NCBI GenBank assembly: GCA_009784335.1
Contig: WRBX01000026.1
Location: 1-7,648, forward strand
Direction of reading: 5' to 3'
Length of the DNA stretch: 7,648 nt
From: Oscillospiraceae bacterium
GTDB taxonomy: Bacteria > Bacillota_A > Clostridia > Monoglobales > WRBX01
A program made the translations under genes and the position numbers. How positions within the stretch are numbered: the first letter of the stretch is position 1; each line of letters begins with the position of its first letter. The notes under the pieces were generated by a model. That model made no database searches, was not told the origin of the DNA, and was given only the letters and a program-made list of their open reading frames with translations. Of this stretch, positions 937 through 7,648 are shown in pieces.

Positions 937-1470
937 ATGACTACATACCAAATCATAGCACAAATACTTGGGATTTTTCTTATTATCACTTGTGCTATCT
1001 CTCCGCAAATGAAGACGAAATCAGGAATACTTTTTTTCATGTTAATGGGAAATATTCTTTGGACTCTTCAATTCGTATTTGTAGGAGCTATAGTCGGAGC
1101 ATTAATTGGTTGTGTATCTATTTCGCGAACATTGATATTTTATCTTTATTCAAGAAAAAATAGAAAAGCGCCATTTTGGATTTTGCTATTACTGCTTACT
1201 GGATTTTTGGCAATACATATATTCAGATGGGAAAGCTGGCACAATATATTGCTTATTCTAGCTATGGCTTATACTTACGGACAATGGCAAGATAATAGAA
1301 CAGTTTTAAGAGGGACATTGATTTGGACTACAATTTTTAATGGTATATATTGCATTTTGTCCGGTGCATACACAGGTGCAATGAATGAATTTATACAAAC
1401 CGGTTCTGCAAGTGTAGCACTGTGGAGATATAGAAAAAGAAGAGCTAAGGGAGAATCAAATGTTATATAG
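937..1470 (+). CDS. YgjV-like inner membrane protein
   Basis: A 177-residue hydrophobic protein that resembles the YgjV family of bacterial inner membrane proteins, whose function I do not know. Membrane segments are apparent at about residues 4-22, 30-48, 50-70, 80-95, 102-116 and 126-146, followed by a basic tail (WRYRKRRAKG). The family pattern is visible in the N-terminal helix, the SISRTLIFYL segment and the C-terminal SGAYTGAMNE...VALWRYRK. I chose the ATG at 937 because AGGAGA (925-930) lies 6 nt upstream; an in-frame TTG at 931 would sit directly on that site. The Shine-Dalgarno overlaps the stop codon of the cysteine desulfurase gene, and the 3' end overlaps the iscU start by 11 nt, so the three genes are probably one transcript. 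It is clearly more AT-rich than both neighbours, which suggests insertion into an iscS-iscU pair. Confidence 0.8.
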   Translation: MTTYQIIAQILGIFLIITCAISPQMKTKSGILFFMLMGNILWTLQFVFVGAIVGALIGCVSISRTLIFYLYSRKNRKAPFWILLLLLTGFLAIHIFRWESWHNILLILAMAYTYGQWQDNRTVLRGTLIWTTIFNGIYCILSGAYTGAMNEFIQTGSASVALWRYRKRRAKGESNVI

Positions 1471-1888
1471 CGAAAAAGTTATGGACCATTTTTCAAATCC
1501 GCGCAATGTTGGCGAGATTGCAGATAGCAATGGCGTCGGCGAAGTGGGCAATGCCAAGTGCGGCGATATTATGAAAATGTACTTAAAAGTGGAAAATGAC
1601 ATCATTATTGATGTGAAATTTCAAACATTCGGCTGCGGCGCGGCGGTGGCGACATCCTCGATGGCGACCGAGCTGATTAAGGGAAAGACCATTACCGAAG
1701 CCCTAAAAGTGACCAATAAGGAAGTTATGGACGCGCTTGATGGCCTGCCGCCGGTGAAGGTGCATTGCTCGGTGCTGGCGCAAGAGGCGATTAAAGTGGC
1801 CATCAGCGATTATTATAAGCGCCAAGGCATCGATCCAACCCCAATCGTCGGCTGTGATGGAAACTGCTCGGGTTGCCATGGCCATTGA
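1460..1888 (+). CDS. iscU: Fe-S cluster assembly scaffold protein IscU/NifU N-terminal type
   Basis: A 142-residue scaffold on which Fe-S clusters are built from sulfur supplied by the upstream desulfurase. The three conserved cysteines and partners are present: C34 and D36 in NAKCGD, C59 in TFGCGAA, and H102-C103 in KVHCSVLA. The N-terminus (YSEKVMDHFSNPRNVG) is a standard IscU start. AAGGGAG (1447-1453) lies 6 nt before the ATG, inside the end of the YgjV-like gene, so translation is probably coupled. Length matches single-domain IscU proteins. The C-terminus adds a short cysteine/histidine-rich tail, GCDGNCSGCHGH (C132, C136, C139, H140, H142), which could bind metal. There is no separate Nfu domain. 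Function is well supported by sequence and by adjacency to the desulfurase. Confidence 0.96.
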   Translation: MLYSEKVMDHFSNPRNVGEIADSNGVGEVGNAKCGDIMKMYLKVENDIIIDVKFQTFGCGAAVATSSMATELIKGKTITEALKVTNKEVMDALDGLPPVKVHCSVLAQEAIKVAISDYYKRQGIDPTPIVGCDGNCSGCHGH

Positions 1889-1912
1889 TTCTTTTTAAGT
1901 ATGGAGGATAAT

Positions 1913-2644
1913 ATGTATCAATTTACAGATGAGTTTATCGAAGAGCAAAGCAATTTAGAGTTTTTGAACGCAAATATGATGGGGCCAAACGCCATGCGGA
2001 TATCGGAGGAAATGGCATCGCATTTAGATATTCGCGAAGGTATGCGAGTGCTGGATTTGGGCTGCGGTTGCGGCCTTTCAACGCTATTGCTCGTGCAAAA
2101 ATTTGGAGTAGAAGTTTTCGCCGCTGACTTGTGGATTTCGCCAACTGACAATGATGAGCGTTTCAAATCTCTTGGAATCGAAGATAAAACCGTTCCTTTG
2201 CTCATAGATGCAACCAAGGGGCTACCTTTTGCCAATGAATATTTCGATATTCTGTTTAGTGTTGATGCATATCAATATTTCGGCAGAACGCCTGAGATGT
2301 TGCCCTCATTAATTCCTTTTGTTAAGAAGGGCGGCTATATCGCAGTGGCAGTTCCGGGGTGGAAGAGTGGGATTGATAGTCCTCCGGAAGAGATATTGCC
2401 ATTTTTTGAGGCGGCAGGCGAGGAAGGCGCAGTGTCATTCCAAAATCCTGAATTTTGGAAGAATCTATGGAGTGAGTGCGACGGAATTGAGCTCCTAAGC
2501 TGCACAGAGATGGATGCTAACCGCCAAGCCTGGGATGAATGGCTGACTAGCGGCCATCCAATTGCACATGAGGATATTCCAATGATGGAGGCTGAAGGGG
2601 GCAAATACTTTACTCTCATACAGCTGATAGCTAAGGTTAAATAA
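1913..2644 (+). CDS. Class I SAM-dependent methyltransferase, substrate unknown
   Basis: A 243-residue soluble protein with a Rossmann-type methyltransferase core. Motif I (VLDLGCGCG, residues 46-54) binds S-adenosylmethionine. The acidic D72 in FAADLW should contact the ribose, D99 lies in LIDATKGLPF, and FDILFSVDAYQYF (about 111-123) corresponds to the motif IV region. I chose the ATG at 1913 because GGAGG (1903-1907) is 5 nt upstream; the longer frame from 1901 would put that site inside the coding sequence. The N-terminal segment EFLNANMMGPNAMRISEEM resembles a group of Firmicute small-molecule methyltransferases, but the sequence does not reveal the substrate. It starts 24 nt after iscU with no promoter visible, so it is likely the last gene of that operon, ending at the terminator at 2672. 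Confidence 0.85.
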   Translation: MYQFTDEFIEEQSNLEFLNANMMGPNAMRISEEMASHLDIREGMRVLDLGCGCGLSTLLLVQKFGVEVFAADLWISPTDNDERFKSLGIEDKTVPLLIDATKGLPFANEYFDILFSVDAYQYFGRTPEMLPSLIPFVKKGGYIAVAVPGWKSGIDSPPEEILPFFEAAGEEGAVSFQNPEFWKNLWSECDGIELLSCTEMDANRQAWDEWLTSGHPIAHEDIPMMEAEGGKYFTLIQLIAKVK

Positions 2645-2671
2645 AGAGACTTTAGTGCAGCATTAAGTTGC

Positions 2672-2704
2672 AAAAAAACTCGCAAAATACTTGCGAGTTT
2701 TTTT
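2672..2704. terminator. Bidirectional Rho-independent terminator
   Basis: A perfect inverted repeat of 14 bp: seven A, then CTCGCAA, loop AATAC, TTGCGAG, then seven T. Because of the A and T runs it should work on both strands. It ends the methyltransferase transcript on the plus strand and the tRNA-Pro transcript on the minus strand, and lies just beyond the tRNA 3' end. Confidence 0.93.
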
Positions 2705-2705
2705 A

Positions 2706-2781
2706 TGGTCGGAGTGACGTGACTTGAACACGCGACCCCCAGACCCCCAGTCTGGTGCGCTACCAACTGCGCCACACCCCG
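2706..2781 (-). tRNA. tRNA-Pro, anticodon GGG, with encoded CCA
   Basis: Read on the minus strand, this 76-nt gene folds as a complete cloverleaf. The acceptor stem pairs CGGGGTG with CACTCCG, with one G-T wobble. The D-arm is GCGC/GCGC around AGTTGGTA. The anticodon stem CCAGA/TCTGG encloses CTGGGGG, giving anticodon GGG (reads CCC and CCU). The T-arm is GCGTG/CACGT around TTCAAGT, with a G-T closing pair, and the 3' end ACCA is encoded. No good promoter is visible in the ~60 nt upstream. The first 14 nt are repeated at 3388-3401, next to a strong promoter. Confidence 0.96.
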
Positions 2782-2784
2782 ATT
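2768..2784 (-). repeat. 17-bp direct repeat, tRNA-proximal copy
   Basis: TGCGCCACACCCCGATT on the plus strand. On the minus strand it covers tRNA-Pro nucleotides 1-14 plus the three bases before the gene. It is identical to 3388-3404 and similarity ends at both edges. Together the copies bracket a 620-bp unit. Confidence 0.9.
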
Positions 2785-2805
2785 TTGTGTACTCTAACGG
2801 CTTTC

Positions 2806-2817
2806 GTTTTCGAAAAC
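2806..2817. other. 12-bp perfect palindrome between membrane gene and tRNA
   Basis: GTTTTCGAAAAC is a perfect palindrome located between the membrane protein stop codon and the tRNA 5' end. It has no loop and no T run, so it is not a convincing terminator. It could be a protein-binding site, but nothing else supports that. Confidence 0.4.
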
Positions 2818-2836
2818 CTGCAAAGTTTTTCAACAT

Positions 2837-3370
2837 TTAAATAGCTTGCATATAACCCATAATGGACATTATGCTTAAAAGTGACATTATCACTATTGAT
2901 AATATGGTAATAGCTTTCTTGTGTTCGAACTTTTGTGAGATATACAGTATCCCAATAAATAATCCTACATACAGAATAGATTCGGGATAACCCTTCAATT
3001 GTAGCCACAAAGGAAATTTCGTATAGATATAACTTTCATATGATGCCCACGGCGCTCCTATGGTTGAAATCAGAGCAAAGCCAATTACTATTAATCCCAA
3101 TTTCCATAGGCCATATTTTTCTTCAAAAAACGCCTTTCGCAAAGGTAATATGAATAACGCTATCAGTATTCCACGAGGAATTTGTAGCACTGTCCCAGCT
3201 AATATCATGAGGGGATCATCAATAGGACGATAAAATGACATTATATCCATTGCCCAAATTTCCTCATAACTTAAGAAATACATCATCAATGCGCCCGCGA
3301 TAAAATAAGCGATTGTGTGAGCGTAGGTAATTCTCCATATAAGCTTTGCCGTCTGCCTTTTTTTGTTCAT
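2837..3370 (-). CDS. Membrane protein of unknown function, five predicted helices
   Basis: A 177-residue hydrophobic protein that I cannot assign to a named family. Helices are apparent at about residues 16-35, 53-76, 88-107, 131-146 and 154-173. Conspicuous non-membrane segments are FYRPIDDP (46-53), LQIPRG (62-67) and ESYIYTKFPLWLQLKGYPES (112-131), which look like conserved loops. I chose the ATG at 3370 because GAGGAG lies about 10 nt upstream. A GTG at 3397 is in frame but falls inside the copied tRNA 5' end. The gene is AT-rich and lies between the two direct repeats. It is probably transcribed from the promoter at 3420-3448, with tRNA-Pro downstream on the same transcript. Confidence 0.8.
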   Translation of the reverse strand: MNKKRQTAKLIWRITYAHTIAYFIAGALMMYFLSYEEIWAMDIMSFYRPIDDPLMILAGTVLQIPRGILIALFILPLRKAFFEEKYGLWKLGLIVIGFALISTIGAPWASYESYIYTKFPLWLQLKGYPESILYVGLFIGILYISQKFEHKKAITILSIVIMSLLSIMSIMGYMQAI

Positions 3371-3387
3371 TTCAAGCACACTCCTCT

Positions 3388-3404
3388 TGCGCCACACCCC
3401 GATT
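3388..3404 (-). repeat. 17-bp direct repeat, distal copy: tRNA-Pro 5' fragment
   Basis: Identical to 2768-2784. On the minus strand it reads AAT followed by CGGGGTGTGGCGCA, the first 14 nt of tRNA-Pro, and then departs into AGAGGAG, the ribosome binding site of the membrane gene. Its tRNA-like start at 3401 is about 12 nt after the predicted transcription start at 3413, the normal geometry for a tRNA gene. It is therefore probably the original 5' end of the tRNA gene. Confidence 0.9.
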
Positions 3405-3419
3405 CGAATTGTTAATTCT

Positions 3420-3448
3420 AATATAGAACTTCAAAACAAAATTGTCAA
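3420..3448 (-). promoter_or_regulatory. Near-consensus sigma-70 promoter on the minus strand
   Basis: On the minus strand, TTGACA (3448-3443) is followed by a 17-nt spacer and TATATT (3425-3420), a 6/6 and 5/6 match. Transcription would begin near 3413, run through the tRNA 5' fragment, the membrane gene, tRNA-Pro and the terminator at 2672. It is divergent from nadE. Confidence 0.8.
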
Positions 3449-3466
3449 ATTTTTACTTCCAAAAAC

Positions 3467-3496
3467 TTGCATTCCGGATATGGCTCATTATATAAG
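3467..3496 (+). promoter_or_regulatory. Putative nadE promoter
   Basis: TTGCAT (3467-3472) is followed 16 nt later by TATATA (3489-3494), with an alternative TATAAG at 3491-3496. The -35 is weak but its context AAAAACTTGCATT recurs exactly before rpsT (7088-7100). The -10 region (3477-3496) also resembles 7110-7129 at 16 of 20 positions. Confidence 0.5.
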
Positions 3497-3518
3497 TAGT
3501 AATGAAAGGTCGAAGAAC

Positions 3519-4247
3519 ATGTTTGATGCATCGATAGAGAAAGATAAAATTACTGGTTGGATTCGTGAATATGTGAGCGGCACGCCGTTTGAGAATGTGG
3601 TAGTTGGCATAAGCGGCGGCAAGGATAGCTCTGTTGTCGCGGCTCTTTGCGTGGCGGCGCTGGGGCGCGAGCGTGTCTTCGGCGCGCTTCTGCCGCATGG
3701 CGCGCAGGCCGATATCGCCGATTCTATGCAACTTGTTAATCACTTGCGTATTTGGCATACCACGATTAATATTGAAAAATCCGTGCAGGCGGCCATAAGC
3801 GAAACCCTCAAGGCCGGCCTGGAAATCGGAGAGGTGGCCAAGGGTAATATCGTCGATTCTATGCGGATGGCGCGGCTTTATGCCGTCGGCGCGAGCCTCG
3901 GCGCGCTGGTTGCAAATTGCAGCAATCTCAGCGAGAACTATGTGGGCTACACCACAAAATTCGGCACCGGCCGCGGCGACTTTAGCCCGCTCGCCGATTA
4001 TACCAACACCGAAGTTAAGGCAATCGGCCGCGAGCTTGGCTTGCCCGAAAACTTGATTGAAAAGGCGCCTGCCGACGGCCTCAGCCCGCTCACCGACGAA
4101 GAGAGCTTTGGCTTTTCCTATGAGGTGCTGGATAAATATATCCGCAGCGGCATCTGCGAGGATGCAGCGATAAAAGCAAAAATCGACAAAATGCACGCAT
4201 CCACCCGCCACAAATTTGATATGCCCAAATGCGTCTATAATCCTTGA
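3519..4247 (+). CDS. nadE: NAD+ synthase, ammonia-dependent type
   Basis: A 242-residue cytosolic enzyme that amidates deamido-NAD to NAD with ATP. The ATP-pyrophosphatase P-loop SGGKDSS is at residues 32-38 in VVVGISGGKDSSVVAAL. Further family segments are GALLPHG, KGNIVDSMRMARLYAVG, CSNLSENYVGYTTKFG, GDFSPLADYTNTEVKAIG, DGLSPLTDEESFGFSYEVLDKYI and the C-terminal KIDKMHASTRHK. There is no glutaminase domain, so it should use free ammonia. I chose the ATG at 3519, preceded by GAAAGG; an upstream extension of the frame runs through promoter sequence and has no family similarity. Some usual motif residues are changed: the first arginine of the RxRM segment is serine, and the K/Q before TDE is leucine. 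The family call is firm. Confidence 0.94.
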   Translation: MFDASIEKDKITGWIREYVSGTPFENVVVGISGGKDSSVVAALCVAALGRERVFGALLPHGAQADIADSMQLVNHLRIWHTTINIEKSVQAAISETLKAGLEIGEVAKGNIVDSMRMARLYAVGASLGALVANCSNLSENYVGYTTKFGTGRGDFSPLADYTNTEVKAIGRELGLPENLIEKAPADGLSPLTDEESFGFSYEVLDKYIRSGICEDAAIKAKIDKMHASTRHKFDMPKCVYNP

Positions 4248-4272: not shown

Positions 4273-4303
4273 AACTATATTGTGATGATTAAGGAGAATG
4301 GAA

Positions 4304-4789
4304 ATGAGTAAGAGAAAATTATTATTTTTGTTTCCAATGAAAGAGTATTTTAAAGATTTTGGAAATGTTGCTGCACAAAAATTTCTTATAAATACTATGA
4401 ATGAAAGAATCGATTCTGAATATAGAAGGAAAGGCTTTGAGATTAATTTTTTGGTTTTTCAGACATATGCAGACAAAGTCAGTGAAGTGGAATGCCTAAA
4501 AACTGTGGAAAGTGATAGAATTATATCAACTAGACCACTTGATTCACCTGCTGCAGAGCAGTATAGAAAAGTGCCTCAATATCCAAAAATTTGTGAACAA
4601 TTGGGCGAAATGGACGAGTTGGTTATTTGCGGTTTTCATAAAGATGATTGCGTTAGAAAAGTTGAGCAGTATTTTAAGAGCTTAGGTATTAACACTTCTG
4701 TTGATATTGAGTTGACAGATGCTTTGTTAGATATAAAAGTAACAAAAGATTTTACTATAAAAGATTTCAATGAAAGGTTGAAGCATTAA
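4304..4789 (+). CDS. Small protein of uncertain function, possibly a degenerate isochorismatase-like fold
   Basis: A 161-residue soluble protein that I do not firmly recognise. I chose the ATG at 4304 because AAGGAG (4291-4296) is 7 nt upstream; the ATG at 4298 is only 1 nt from it. The segment DELVICGFHKDDCVRKVEQYF (105-125) followed by LGINTSVDIELTDAL recalls the strand-Cys-helix-strand part of isochorismatase-like cysteine hydrolases, with C116 at the nucleophile position. The N-terminal LLFLFPMKEYFKDF would line up with the usual LLVIDMQNDF, but the catalytic aspartate is absent, so if related it is probably inactive or altered. The gene is clearly AT-rich compared with nadE and pcrA on either side. 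It has its own likely promoter at 4244 and its stop codon abuts the helicase start. Confidence 0.75.
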   Translation: MSKRKLLFLFPMKEYFKDFGNVAAQKFLINTMNERIDSEYRRKGFEINFLVFQTYADKVSEVECLKTVESDRIISTRPLDSPAAEQYRKVPQYPKICEQLGEMDELVICGFHKDDCVRKVEQYFKSLGINTSVDIELTDALLDIKVTKDFTIKDFNERLKH

Positions 4790-6742
4790 TTGAACAACAA
4801 ACGATTCACACATTTAAATGAAATGCAGCAGGCGGCCGTGGGGTGCACCGAGGGTCCGCTTTTGATTCTCGCGGGCGCGGGCAGCGGAAAAACCACCGTG
4901 CTCATCAACCGCATTGCCAACATCATCGAGCAAGGCCTTGCGCAACCCGAGGAGATTTTGGCAATCACCTTCACCAATAAGGCGGCCAATGAGCTCAAGG
5001 ATAGAATCGAGCGCATGCTGGGCTCGGATGCGTCGCAAAATATCTGGGCGCACACTTTCCATGCAGCTTGCGTCAAGATTCTCCGCCGTCATATCAACAA
5101 AATCGGGTATAGCCGCTCGTTTAACATTTTCGACCAAACCGACCAGAAGGCGCTGATTAAAGCCTGCATTAAGGATTTGAATTTTGATGAGCGCCGCTAC
5201 GATATCAAGGCCGTGATGAACACCATTTCGCGCGCCAAAGATAAGATGATGATGCCCGAAAATTTCCGTCAGGAAGCGGGATATGACTATCGCCTAAAGC
5301 AGCTTGCCAAGATTTATGATTTATATCAGCGCAATCTCGAGCGCAATAATAGCCTCGATTTCGATGATATTATTATGAAAACAGTCACCCTTTTCCGCAA
5401 ATTCCCCAAGGTGCTCGCCGAGTATCAGGATAAGTTCAAATACATATTGGTGGACGAGTATCAAGATACCAATATGGCGCAATATATCCTGATTAAGCAA
5501 CTTGCGGGCGAGCGGCGCAACCTATACGTTGTGGGCGATGACGACCAATCGATTTATAAATTCCGCGGTGCGACCATCGAAAATATCCTGAATTTTGAGA
5601 AGCATTTTGGCGATGCGAAAGTGGTTAAGCTGGAGCAAAACTATCGTTCGACGCAAAATATTTTGAATGCGGCAAACTCGGTGATTAAAGAAAACCTTGA
5701 TAGAAAAGGCAAAAAACTGTGGACAGCGAACGACACAGGCGAGCATATCGAGCTTGTGTGCCTTACCAATGAGAAAGAAGAGGCCAAATTTATCGCCGAG
5801 AATGTTGGCAAATTGGTCAATAGCGGAGTTTATACATATAGCGATTTCGCCCTGCTTTACCGCATGAATGCGCAATCGCGAAATCTTGAAGAGGCGTTTA
5901 TCCAGCATAATATCCCCTATAAAATCGTCGGCGGCCTGCGGTTCTACGATCGCAAGGAGATTAAGGATATCGTTTCCTATCTCAAGTTGATTCATAATAA
6001 GAACGATAATTTAGCTCTAAAACGCATTATCAATGTGCCCTCGCGCAAAATTGGCAAGACAACGGTGGAGCACTTGGAAGAAATTGCCAAGATGGCAAAT
6101 TGCTCACTCTTTGAGGTGATTGAGAAGGCCGATGACTTTAAATCACTGGAAAAGGCTAAGGCCAAGCTTGTTGGTTTCAAAGATTTGATAAATAGTCTGG
6201 CATATAACGATGAGAAAATAGCCGATTTCATGGAAGAAGTTATTGGAAGCACGGGGTATATCAAAAATCTAGAAGAAGAAATGACGCTTGAAAATATGGC
6301 TCGCATCGAGAATATGAAGGAGTTTCTCTCGATTGCGCGCGTTTATGATGAAAATGCCAAGGGCGGCAGCCTGGGCGATTTTCTCGAGAACATAATGCTT
6401 TTTTCCGATATTGATGAGATTAAGGATTCGGGCGAAAACTGCGTGATTATGATGACACTGCATGCCTCAAAAGGCCTTGAATTTCCTGTGGTTTTTATGA
6501 CCGGCATGGAGCAAAATATTTTCCCGTCGGCGCTAAATATGAACGATGCGGCGCAGATGGCGGAGGAGCGGCGGCTTTGCTATGTGGGCATAACGCGCGC
6601 CAAGCAGAAGCTTTTTCTCACCAGAGCCAAGCAGCGCCTGCTATTCGGCAAAACCGATCATAACCCGCCAAGCCCATTTATCCGCAGTATTCCAATGGAA
6701 CTCACCGGCATCGGCGCCGATTTGGTTGATATATTTGTGTAG
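4790..6742 (+). CDS. pcrA: PcrA/UvrD-type DNA helicase lacking the C-terminal extension
   Basis: A 650-residue superfamily 1A 3'-to-5' helicase that uses ATP to unwind DNA in repair and plasmid replication and to clear protein-DNA roadblocks. All motifs are present: Q motif LNEMQQAA (9-16), Walker A GAGSGKT (29-35), Ia AITFTNKAANEL, Walker B VDEYQD (221-226), motif III GDDDQSIY (249-256), motif IV QNYRS (283-287), motif V MTLHASKGLEF (from about 555) and motif VI YVGITRAK (598-605). The start is TTG at 4790, directly after the TAA of the preceding gene and with only a distant AAAGG upstream, so translation is probably coupled. Homology to PcrA begins within ten residues of it. The protein ends about 45 residues after motif VI at the conserved PPSPFI...IP segment. 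PcrA of Bacillus is about 740 residues, so the linker and Tudor-like RNA-polymerase-binding domain are missing. Confidence 0.95.
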   Translation: MNNKRFTHLNEMQQAAVGCTEGPLLILAGAGSGKTTVLINRIANIIEQGLAQPEEILAITFTNKAANELKDRIERMLGSDASQNIWAHTFHAACVKILRRHINKIGYSRSFNIFDQTDQKALIKACIKDLNFDERRYDIKAVMNTISRAKDKMMMPENFRQEAGYDYRLKQLAKIYDLYQRNLERNNSLDFDDIIMKTVTLFRKFPKVLAEYQDKFKYILVDEYQDTNMAQYILIKQLAGERRNLYVVGDDDQSIYKFRGATIENILNFEKHFGDAKVVKLEQNYRSTQNILNAANSVIKENLDRKGKKLWTANDTGEHIELVCLTNEKEEAKFIAENVGKLVNSGVYTYSDFALLYRMNAQSRNLEEAFIQHNIPYKIVGGLRFYDRKEIKDIVSYLKLIHNKNDNLALKRIINVPSRKIGKTTVEHLEEIAKMANCSLFEVIEKADDFKSLEKAKAKLVGFKDLINSLAYNDEKIADFMEEVIGSTGYIKNLEEEMTLENMARIENMKEFLSIARVYDENAKGGSLGDFLENIMLFSDIDEIKDSGENCVIMMTLHASKGLEFPVVFMTGMEQNIFPSALNMNDAAQMAEERRLCYVGITRAKQKLFLTRAKQRLLFGKTDHNPPSPFIRSIPMELTGIGADLVDIFV

Positions 6743-6766: not shown

Positions 6767-7102
6767 ATGGAATCAGTAAGAAATCTATTAAGCAAAATTG
6801 AACCAACAGAGATTCAATATGTAGAAAAAGAGATTAGAGAATCAATTAAGCGTGGCAGCAAGCATTTGCAAATAATCAGCTTGAGTGATGAAATGATATC
6901 ATATTTACAAGCAAATGGTTGCAGAGTGAGATTAGATCAAACCGGCTTAGAACCTATGTATTATAATGAAGAAGGTTATGATGATGATATAGGCATAGAT
7001 TCTTTTGCTCCGGAAATCTACAATATCGATTTAGATAATGCAGCAAATTCTTTTTTGCAAGAAATGGAATGCCGCGACACTTTTGACAAAAACTTGCATT
7101 AA
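6767..7102 (+). CDS. Hypothetical 111-residue acidic protein
   Basis: I do not recognise this protein. The first half is charged and helical (residues 1-30), followed by HLQIISLSDEMISYLQANGCRVRL (33-56), an apparent strand-helix-strand. That pattern vaguely recalls small phage-related proteins with a 'LSDEVxxYLxxxGYxV' arrangement, but this is only impression. The second half is acidic and carries YYNEEGYDDDIGIDS. No signal peptide or membrane segment is seen. AGAAAGG (6753-6759) lies 7 nt before the ATG, and the gap to pcrA is 24 nt, so it is probably read from the helicase transcript. The gene is AT-rich, and its last codons overlap the promoter region of rpsT. Confidence 0.7.
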   Translation: MESVRNLLSKIEPTEIQYVEKEIRESIKRGSKHLQIISLSDEMISYLQANGCRVRLDQTGLEPMYYNEEGYDDDIGIDSFAPEIYNIDLDNAANSFLQEMECRDTFDKNLH

Positions 7103-7150: not shown

Positions 7151-7414
7151 TTGCCTAATATTAAATCAGCAAAAAAGCGCGTGAAAGTGATTGAAAAGAA
7201 GACTCTTCAAAACACTATGATTAAATCCGCTATCAAAACAGCTTTGAAGAAATTTGATTCCCTCATCGCCGCTAATGATAAGAAAGAAGCCGCCAGCTAT
7301 CACGCAGAAGTTGTGAAAATGCTGGATCAAGCGCTTGCAAAAGGCGTGTTTCATAAAAACACAGTCGCTCGCAAAAAGTCCGCTTTGGCAGGCAAGCTTA
7401 ATAAATTAAGCTAA
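7151..7414 (+). CDS. rpsT: 30S ribosomal protein S20
   Basis: An 87-residue, lysine-rich, three-helix protein that binds 16S rRNA in the small ribosomal subunit. The N-terminus MPNIKSAKKRVKVIEKKTLQN and the C-terminal KGVFHKNTVARKKSALAGKLNKL are standard for S20. The start is TTG at 7151, with GAGAGG (7137-7142) 8 nt upstream. A GTG at 7142 overlaps the Shine-Dalgarno and would add three unconserved residues. In E. coli the rpsT start codon is also UUG and takes part in autogenous control, so the rare start may be functional here; that transfer is inference. A terminator follows at 7448. Confidence 0.97.
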   Translation: MPNIKSAKKRVKVIEKKTLQNTMIKSAIKTALKKFDSLIAANDKKEAASYHAEVVKMLDQALAKGVFHKNTVARKKSALAGKLNKLS

Positions 7415-7442
7415 CGAATAAGTCATAATGAATAACGAATAA
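7412..7442 (+). repeat. Short spaced direct repeat after rpsT
   Basis: TAACGAATAA occurs at 7412-7421, where it includes the rpsT stop codon, and again at 7433-7442. The spacing is 21 nt. It may be a remnant of an AT-rich short tandem repeat; no function is evident. Confidence 0.45.
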
Positions 7443-7447
7443 CCGCT

Positions 7448-7477
7448 GAGGATTTGCTTTCGCAAATCTTCTTTTAT
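7448..7477 (+). terminator. Rho-independent terminator of rpsT
   Basis: A 10-bp stem pairs GAGGATTTGC with GCAAATCTTC (one G-T wobble) around TTTC, followed by TTTTATT. It lies 33 nt after the rpsT stop codon. Confidence 0.85.
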
Positions 7478-7502
7478 TGCTCTGTAGTTTAGCTCGAAGC
7501 AA

Positions 7503-7529
7503 GGCGGTCACAGACCGCCCCTACAATTG
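7503..7529 (-). repeat. GTAGGGG hairpin repeat, copy C (minus strand)
   Basis: On the minus strand this begins CAATTGTAGGGG and forms a perfect 7-bp stem, GGCGGTC with GACCGCC, around TGT. It shares the leader with the other copies but has a different stem sequence. Confidence 0.8.
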
Positions 7530-7547
7530 AGGCGATAGGGCTTCACA

Positions 7548-7576
7548 CAATTATAGGGGCAGCCATCAGCCGCCCG
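7548..7576 (+). repeat. GTAGGGG-type hairpin repeat, copy D
   Basis: Begins CAATTATAGGGG, a one-base variant of the copy C leader, and ends CGCCCG. The stem GGGCAGC/GCCGCCC has one A-C mismatch around CATCA. It is divergent to copy C, so the two CAATT ends face each other across 18 nt. Confidence 0.75.
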
Positions 7577-7600
7577 CCTTCGCAGGAATACCCCGGCATC

Positions 7601-7627
7601 GTAGGGGACGCCGTCTCGGGCGTCCCG
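7601..7627 (+). repeat. GTAGGGG hairpin repeat, copy E
   Basis: A 27-nt unit beginning GTAGGGGACGCC and ending GGCGTCCCG. It has a perfect 8-bp stem (GGGACGCC/GGCGTCCC) around GTCTCG. It is the closest relative of copy A in the cysteine desulfurase gene. The downstream TTCGCAG is also found after copy D (7579-7585), so D and E look like related units about 50 nt apart. No gene is seen from 7415 to the window end. Confidence 0.85.
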
Positions 7628-7648
7628 AACTTCGCAGCGCATACCTCT

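Follow-up and report, generated by a model that had tools for sequence, protein, structure and literature searches.

A foreign-looking membrane-protein gene between a displaced 5' fragment of tRNA-Pro(GGG) and the intact tRNA gene

In the stretch of DNA analysed here (7,648 bp in full; hereafter the window), an AT-rich membrane-protein gene is flanked on one side by an intact tRNA-Pro(GGG) gene and on the other by an exact copy of the first 14 bases of that tRNA. The strong promoter match of the locus lies beyond this displaced fragment, which means that the gene separates the tRNA from its likely promoter. The arrangement is the mirror image of the scar that mobile DNA usually leaves on entering a tRNA gene. 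Our tentative reading, to which we give a probability of roughly 0.45, is that horizontally acquired DNA was inserted on the 5' side of tRNA-Pro and that it most likely stems from a site-specific integration, either as a reduced remnant or as a passenger without an integrase. The window carries, in order, nifS (start cut), a ygjV-like gene, nifU, a methyltransferase gene, tRNA-Pro (minus strand), the membrane-protein gene (minus strand), nadE, a hypothetical gene, uvrD, a second hypothetical gene and rpsT. The features of the locus are as follows.

2672..2704, minus strand: 14-bp inverted repeat with an A/T run, behind the tRNA (on the other strand, behind the methyltransferase gene)
2706..2781, minus strand: intact tRNA-Pro (GGG) (ARAGORN 2781-2706; Rfam RF00005 2781-2709, 61.1 bits)
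2768..2784, minus strand: proximal 17-bp copy, a portion of the intact tRNA gene with its 3 upstream bases
2785..2836, minus strand: spacer of 52 bp from the stop codon to the proximal copy
2837..3370, minus strand: AT-rich membrane-protein gene P0001, 177 aa
3381..3387, minus strand: AGAGGAG, putative ribosome-binding site picked out by eye, abutting the distal copy
3388..3404, minus strand: distal 17-bp copy, AAT plus tRNA-Pro nt 1-14, the displaced 5' fragment
3420..3448, minus strand: sigma-70-type promoter match TTGACA-17-TATATT, scoring 11 of 12

The repeat, TGCGCCACACCCCGATT, lies at 2768-2784 and 3388-3404 with a spacing of 620 and reads on the minus strand as AAT followed by nt 1-14 of tRNA-Pro(GGG). 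The two copies are 100% identical, which confirms the earlier note's 17-bp sequence at both ends of a 620-bp unit. When 2805-3518 was put through 2000 dinucleotide shuffles, none gave an exact match to the tRNA region longer than 13 bases, let alone 17, which supports our reading. The 17-mer is also the sole exact direct repeat of at least 14 bases in the 7,648-bp window (a count that left out inverted repeats), bar one 14-mer, CAAAAACTTGCATT. The latter (3460-3473 and 7087-7100) is common to the regions upstream of nadE and rpsT and, by eye, overlaps a possible -35 region. Identity of the two 17-bp copies stops sharply at nt 14: the intact gene runs on into its D loop, while the distal copy gives way to AGAGGAG, with an ATG 17 nt on. 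An upstream extension of the repeat (TTAGA-T--ACAA, with a 4-nt gap) is matched by shuffles in 9-14% of trials; it was therefore rejected and is not counted as part of the repeat.

But could the distal copy be what is left of a second tRNA gene? If an upstream tandem tRNA-Pro had been lost save for 14 bases, with a foreign gene replacing its body and only promoter and 5' end left in place, the same layout would result without any recombinase; adjacent tRNA-Pro pairs do exist, for example on the IMG/VR contigs L032 and L034. However, the insert contains, on the tRNA's strand, no similarity above chance to tRNA nt 15-76, which is mildly against such a relic. Moreover, the identity of the copies over 17 bp would require a recent loss whose boundary fell precisely in front of the sequence resembling a ribosome-binding site. 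We therefore consider a tandem relic unlikely, if still a serious contender.

The 620-bp unit holds one evident gene, which is AT-rich, as the earlier note had pointed out, and encodes 177 aa; its putative ribosome-binding site follows straight after the distal copy, and a start at the in-frame GTG of position 3397, within the repeat, would lengthen the protein to 186 aa. The composition of the gene is foreign-looking: its GC content is 36% and its GC3 37%, against a GC3 of 56-62% in nifS, nifU, nadE and uvrD. This contrast supports acquisition from elsewhere; it is weaker against the methyltransferase gene (45%) and rpsT (42%), whose values are nearer to that of the insert and count against our reading. 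For the protein, neither Pfam nor NCBIfam gave a family above cut-off, and PADLOC gave no match. Its predicted structure is a helical model (pLDDT 82.7) for which a fold search against the PDB returned no match at E 0.001.

Judged by its relatives in sequence, the gene belongs to a scattered, unnamed family. Homologs numbered 217 at E <=0.1 out of 391 candidates, and organism names on 3 of the 120 homologs listed point to one Defluviitaleaceae and two Treponema MAGs. In genome draws that overlap one another, homologs turned up at frequencies of 1/391, 5/295, 10/295 and 1/7, and of 8/348 with an alignment at E 1e-15; many of these matches are weak; the single close one, L012 at 68%, is 1 of the 10 matches in 295 genomes of a single clostridial order. 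Among plasmids, a Parabacteroides record is the sole match (56% over 73%). The gene was found neither in viral contigs, with the single protein or a 38-sequence alignment as query, nor in phages. The scatter of the homologs is in line with horizontal acquisition and supports our reading. On the other hand, ARAGORN found no tRNA beside the homolog in any of the 11 homolog places that it was given out of 25 (weak homologs included), most of the 11 with <=1.5 kb of flank; together with the lack of a second example in the searches described below, this counts against it.

The position of the promoter match provides a further argument. TTGACA-17-TATATT (3448-3420) is the best match in 2640-3530 and the sole one listed on that strand; the scan of this region gave 7 sites where shuffles led us to expect 3.5, the six others scoring 9 of 12 and lying on the plus strand. 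The -10 element is 18 nt away from tRNA nt 1 of the distal copy and 638 nt away from that of the intact tRNA. This difference supports our reading, in which the promoter originally served the tRNA. In the 52-bp spacer (2785-2836) the scan listed no promoter match on the tRNA's strand, and a hairpin there is no stronger than in shuffles (z -1.2).

How might this arrangement have arisen, and how would it work? We propose that about 603 bp with one membrane-protein gene entered the 5' end of the tRNA-Pro(GGG) gene by an integration of the tyrosine-recombinase type that used the 5' side of the tRNA, the insert being a reduced remnant or an integrase-less passenger. On the far side the intact tRNA would have been re-formed; on the near side the original promoter and tRNA nt 1-14 would have remained. 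The membrane-protein gene would then use the tRNA promoter with its own ribosome-binding site after the repeat, and the tRNA would form the 3' portion of one shared transcript, from which RNase P would release it. The simplest reading is thus a single message comprising a leader with 14 tRNA bases, the membrane protein, tRNA-Pro and a terminator. The last role could be played by the inverted repeat with its A/T run at 2704-2672, a site that the terminator scan did not list. When the whole message is folded, the 3' acceptor strand of the tRNA pairs with the distal 5' strand instead of the proximal one, and the energies of the two duplexes are equal; this exchange follows from the identity of the copies and does not imply a function.

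Known tRNA-targeting elements offer two points of comparison. In the available text of the Islander study (PMC4383910), a 5' tDNA fragment is recorded for 159 of 3919 islands, and the filter demands that such a fragment lie upstream of the tRNA in the same orientation; candidates shorter than 2 kb or without an integrase are dropped, the length filter being 2 to 200 kb. The portions at hand of a review dealing with archaea (PMC8371274) describe pTN3-like archaeal integrases that use the 5' half of tRNA genes and whose integration, seldom seen in bacteria, leaves the tRNA under the integrase promoter. A 5'-end site, which the earlier note had called unusual, is therefore rare, as the note supposed, but already known.

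The locus resembles the 5'-fragment islands in that a whole tRNA gene and a displaced terminal fragment lie on the same replicon, the fragment upstream of the tRNA and in the same orientation, with foreign DNA between them. Promoter, 5' fragment, insert and whole tRNA thus stand in the order accepted for such an island in the available Islander text (PMC4383910), which supports our reading. Unlike these islands, the unit measures 620 bp rather than at least 2 kb, its fragment is 14 nt long, and its one evident gene (177 aa) has no integrase domain. The likeness to pTN3-like elements is that the 5' part of the tRNA would be the attachment site and that the re-formed tRNA would be severed from its own promoter; the unit differs from them in having no integrase gene. 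Further, the tRNA at a pTN3-like site is driven by the integrase promoter, going by the portions of PMC8371274 at hand, whereas the tRNA in the window would at best be reached by read-through from the old promoter. Finally, the block shared by the window copies ends at nt 14, before the D loop. According to the same portions of that review, the stretch common to attL and attR is insufficient by itself and recombination needs more nucleotides, so a block ending at nt 14 does not exclude a longer site.

The earlier note's statement that the unit lacks an integrase held in a Pfam scan, which revealed neither an integrase nor another recombinase among the 10 window proteins, three of which have no family above cut-off. 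The missing recombinase, a length under the 2-kb floor and the end of identity at nt 14 all count against our reading. This also brings in an explanation in which the tRNA is a bystander: a 17-bp target duplication around a foreign gene, arising from staggered-break repair or an unknown transposition-like event, would suffice to produce the layout, and no integrase was found that would call for more. However, neither the unit nor the set of 10 scanned proteins includes a transposase, and the insert is not bounded by evident terminal inverted repeats (best local scores 9-10, without shuffle control) of the kind looked for in an insertion sequence or transposon. In addition, that one end of the duplication should fall within 3 bases of the tRNA start would be a coincidence. 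An insertion of this kind we also judge unlikely, on a par with loss of a tandem tRNA.

A possible precedent for site-specific integration at this end of the gene comes from a phage-type contig, L037 (IMG/VR 3300025168_011999, 10985-11568), where the 5' half of a tRNA-Pro(GGG) lies beside a tyrosine-integrase frame. The tRNA part comprises AAT and nt 1 to the anticodon arm and begins about 100 bp behind the end of the frame, which is itself cut by the contig end and whose C-terminus matches PF00589 with E 1.7e-5 and 25.1 bits, below the cut-off of 27.1. From its sequence, L037 may be read as a candidate attP of the 5' type. It shares with the window unit the isoacceptor and the very letters of AAT and nt 1-14; it differs in that an integrase is present and that identity continues through the anticodon arm, whereas in the window it ends at nt 14.

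The exact 17-mer occurs in nine IMG/VR contigs, once in each: besides the one in L037, six copies lie in whole tRNA-Pro genes (ARAGORN), and those in L036 and L038 are followed by no tRNA sequence and were set aside as presumed chance matches. It is likewise present once each in 3 of 291 Clostridia genomes, always within a whole tRNA-Pro. Neither these nine contigs nor the 291 genomes hold a second copy of the arrangement, which the earlier note had suggested looking for between copies of the 17-mer. What stands of the integrated cassette proposed earlier is a foreign gene that separates promoter from tRNA, together with a displaced 5' fragment whose order and orientation fit. The mobility of the unit is conjectural; neither an empty site nor a circular form came to light among the sequences compared. 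In viral contigs the proximal junction pattern had 0 matches; the distal one had 2, which were taken as chance because neither has tRNA sequence around it. When the DNA of the locus was compared with plasmids (best 20 of 34 records) and phages (best 20 of 69 records), the matches listed covered <=11% of the query and fell on the tRNA stretch. The best phage match, MT837064 (L050, 'Bacteriophage sp.'), contains a whole tRNA-Pro(GGG) that is 91% like that of the window; by eye it reads like bacterial chromosome, and we discarded it. A limited literature search, covering titles and the openings of abstracts, found no integrase-less single-gene unit at a tRNA 5' end, which leaves its absence from the literature unproven.

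Where does the window come from, and is it correctly assembled? Matches of its UvrD protein at 83% and 78% (jgi/ena sources only) and at 58% to a Clostridiales MAG would place the host in or near Clostridia. The closest UvrD among 283 sampled Clostridia genomes is only 55% identical, too distant for an empty-site comparison, and a pattern-based scan for nadE gave 3 loci at 49-54%. As the window is a metagenome contig and repeats can mis-join, two tRNA-Pro loci might in principle have been joined at the 17-mer by assembly or binning. Yet 17 bp is shorter than usual assembly overlaps. In addition, listings on a contig of 28,579 bases exist both for the membrane protein and for the neighbouring methyltransferase on the other side of the tRNA, and this speaks against an assembly fault; UvrD is listed on a 7,648-base one. 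The two contigs suggest that the arrangement was assembled twice, and we count this in favour of our reading; an artefact is highly improbable.

A different source of single-gene units is the integron. Like an integron cassette, the window unit has a single gene that brings a ribosome-binding site but, lacking its own promoter, would be read from a resident one, and the nearest readable homolog of its gene sits near an attC-like site. This 68% homolog, P0021, lies in L021 with GNAT, PIN and MazE-type genes, a mix that is the usual make-up of integron arrays, and with a 132-bp attC-like site (5358-5489) whose R boxes are fully complementary. The available part of one report places attC sites of 132 bp on record in T. 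succinifaciens (PMC3607928). In the window, GCCGTTAGAG, which precedes the tRNA, looks by eye like an R' box. A circular cassette could thus have been inserted off-site, by an integron integrase, at a chromosomal position near the tRNA.

Several observations speak against this. No attC was found behind the window gene in either run of a home-made detector, which is noisy at both of its settings, listing sites inside genes and also in L050, L051 and L052; the looser run gave one distant window match, at 7409-7493, and the strict run none. The R'-like bases would be reached by the upstream similarity rejected above, which lacks significance and would otherwise have pointed to an integron-type crossover; the attC-like stretch directly behind P0021 (about L012 1210-1333) was seen by eye only and is in neither detector run. 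In L051, with a more distant homolog, there is no attC at the gene; the two matches there, one on each strand at 3237-3291, are about 1.6 kb off and fall within a long coding frame (1267-3513). No integron integrase in G763, the genome to which L021 belongs, exceeded the cut-off, but 0 of 14 control genomes passed it either, so the search had no positive control. L021, with its attC-like site in a genome with no such integrase over cut-off, may be misbinned. Insertion of an integron cassette is not known to produce a 17-bp duplication, so the repeat argues against it. Hence the unit departs from integron cassettes in having no detected attC, no integron in sight and a duplication instead; an integron origin of the gene is possible, and its insertion by an integron integrase at the tRNA is quite unlikely.

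If our reading of a remnant is correct, the locus clearly exemplifies the minority 5' class, with a tRNA that apparently depends on the message of an acquired gene. More far-reaching would be a minimal one-gene element that is moved by a recombinase in trans, enters the 5' end of the tRNA and seizes its promoter, leaving the tRNA dependent on read-through. We hold this to be quite unlikely. Should it prove mobile, the unit would rank among tRNA-targeting elements as a very small one, of a kind that the Islander rules discard (no integrase, <2 kb), and would illustrate how a tRNA promoter can be captured.

Elsewhere in the window, three further AT-rich genes (931-1470, 4298-4789 and 6767-7102; GC3 25-28%) are interleaved with core genes; one of them belongs to the YgjV family (PF10688), and none of the three is flanked by direct repeats. 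The UvrD/PcrA-type helicase (4790-6739) is without the PF21196 domain. Most of its 120 best relatives are listed with this domain, but the three nearest (P0122-P0124) likewise lack it. Finally, a GTAGGGG-type repeat occurs at 471 and 525 (plus strand), 7601 (plus strand) and 7524 (minus strand), within 471-555 and 7518-7630 of the window; the copies at 471 and 525 lie inside the nifS frame and, by eye, seem to add about 30 in-frame residues to it.
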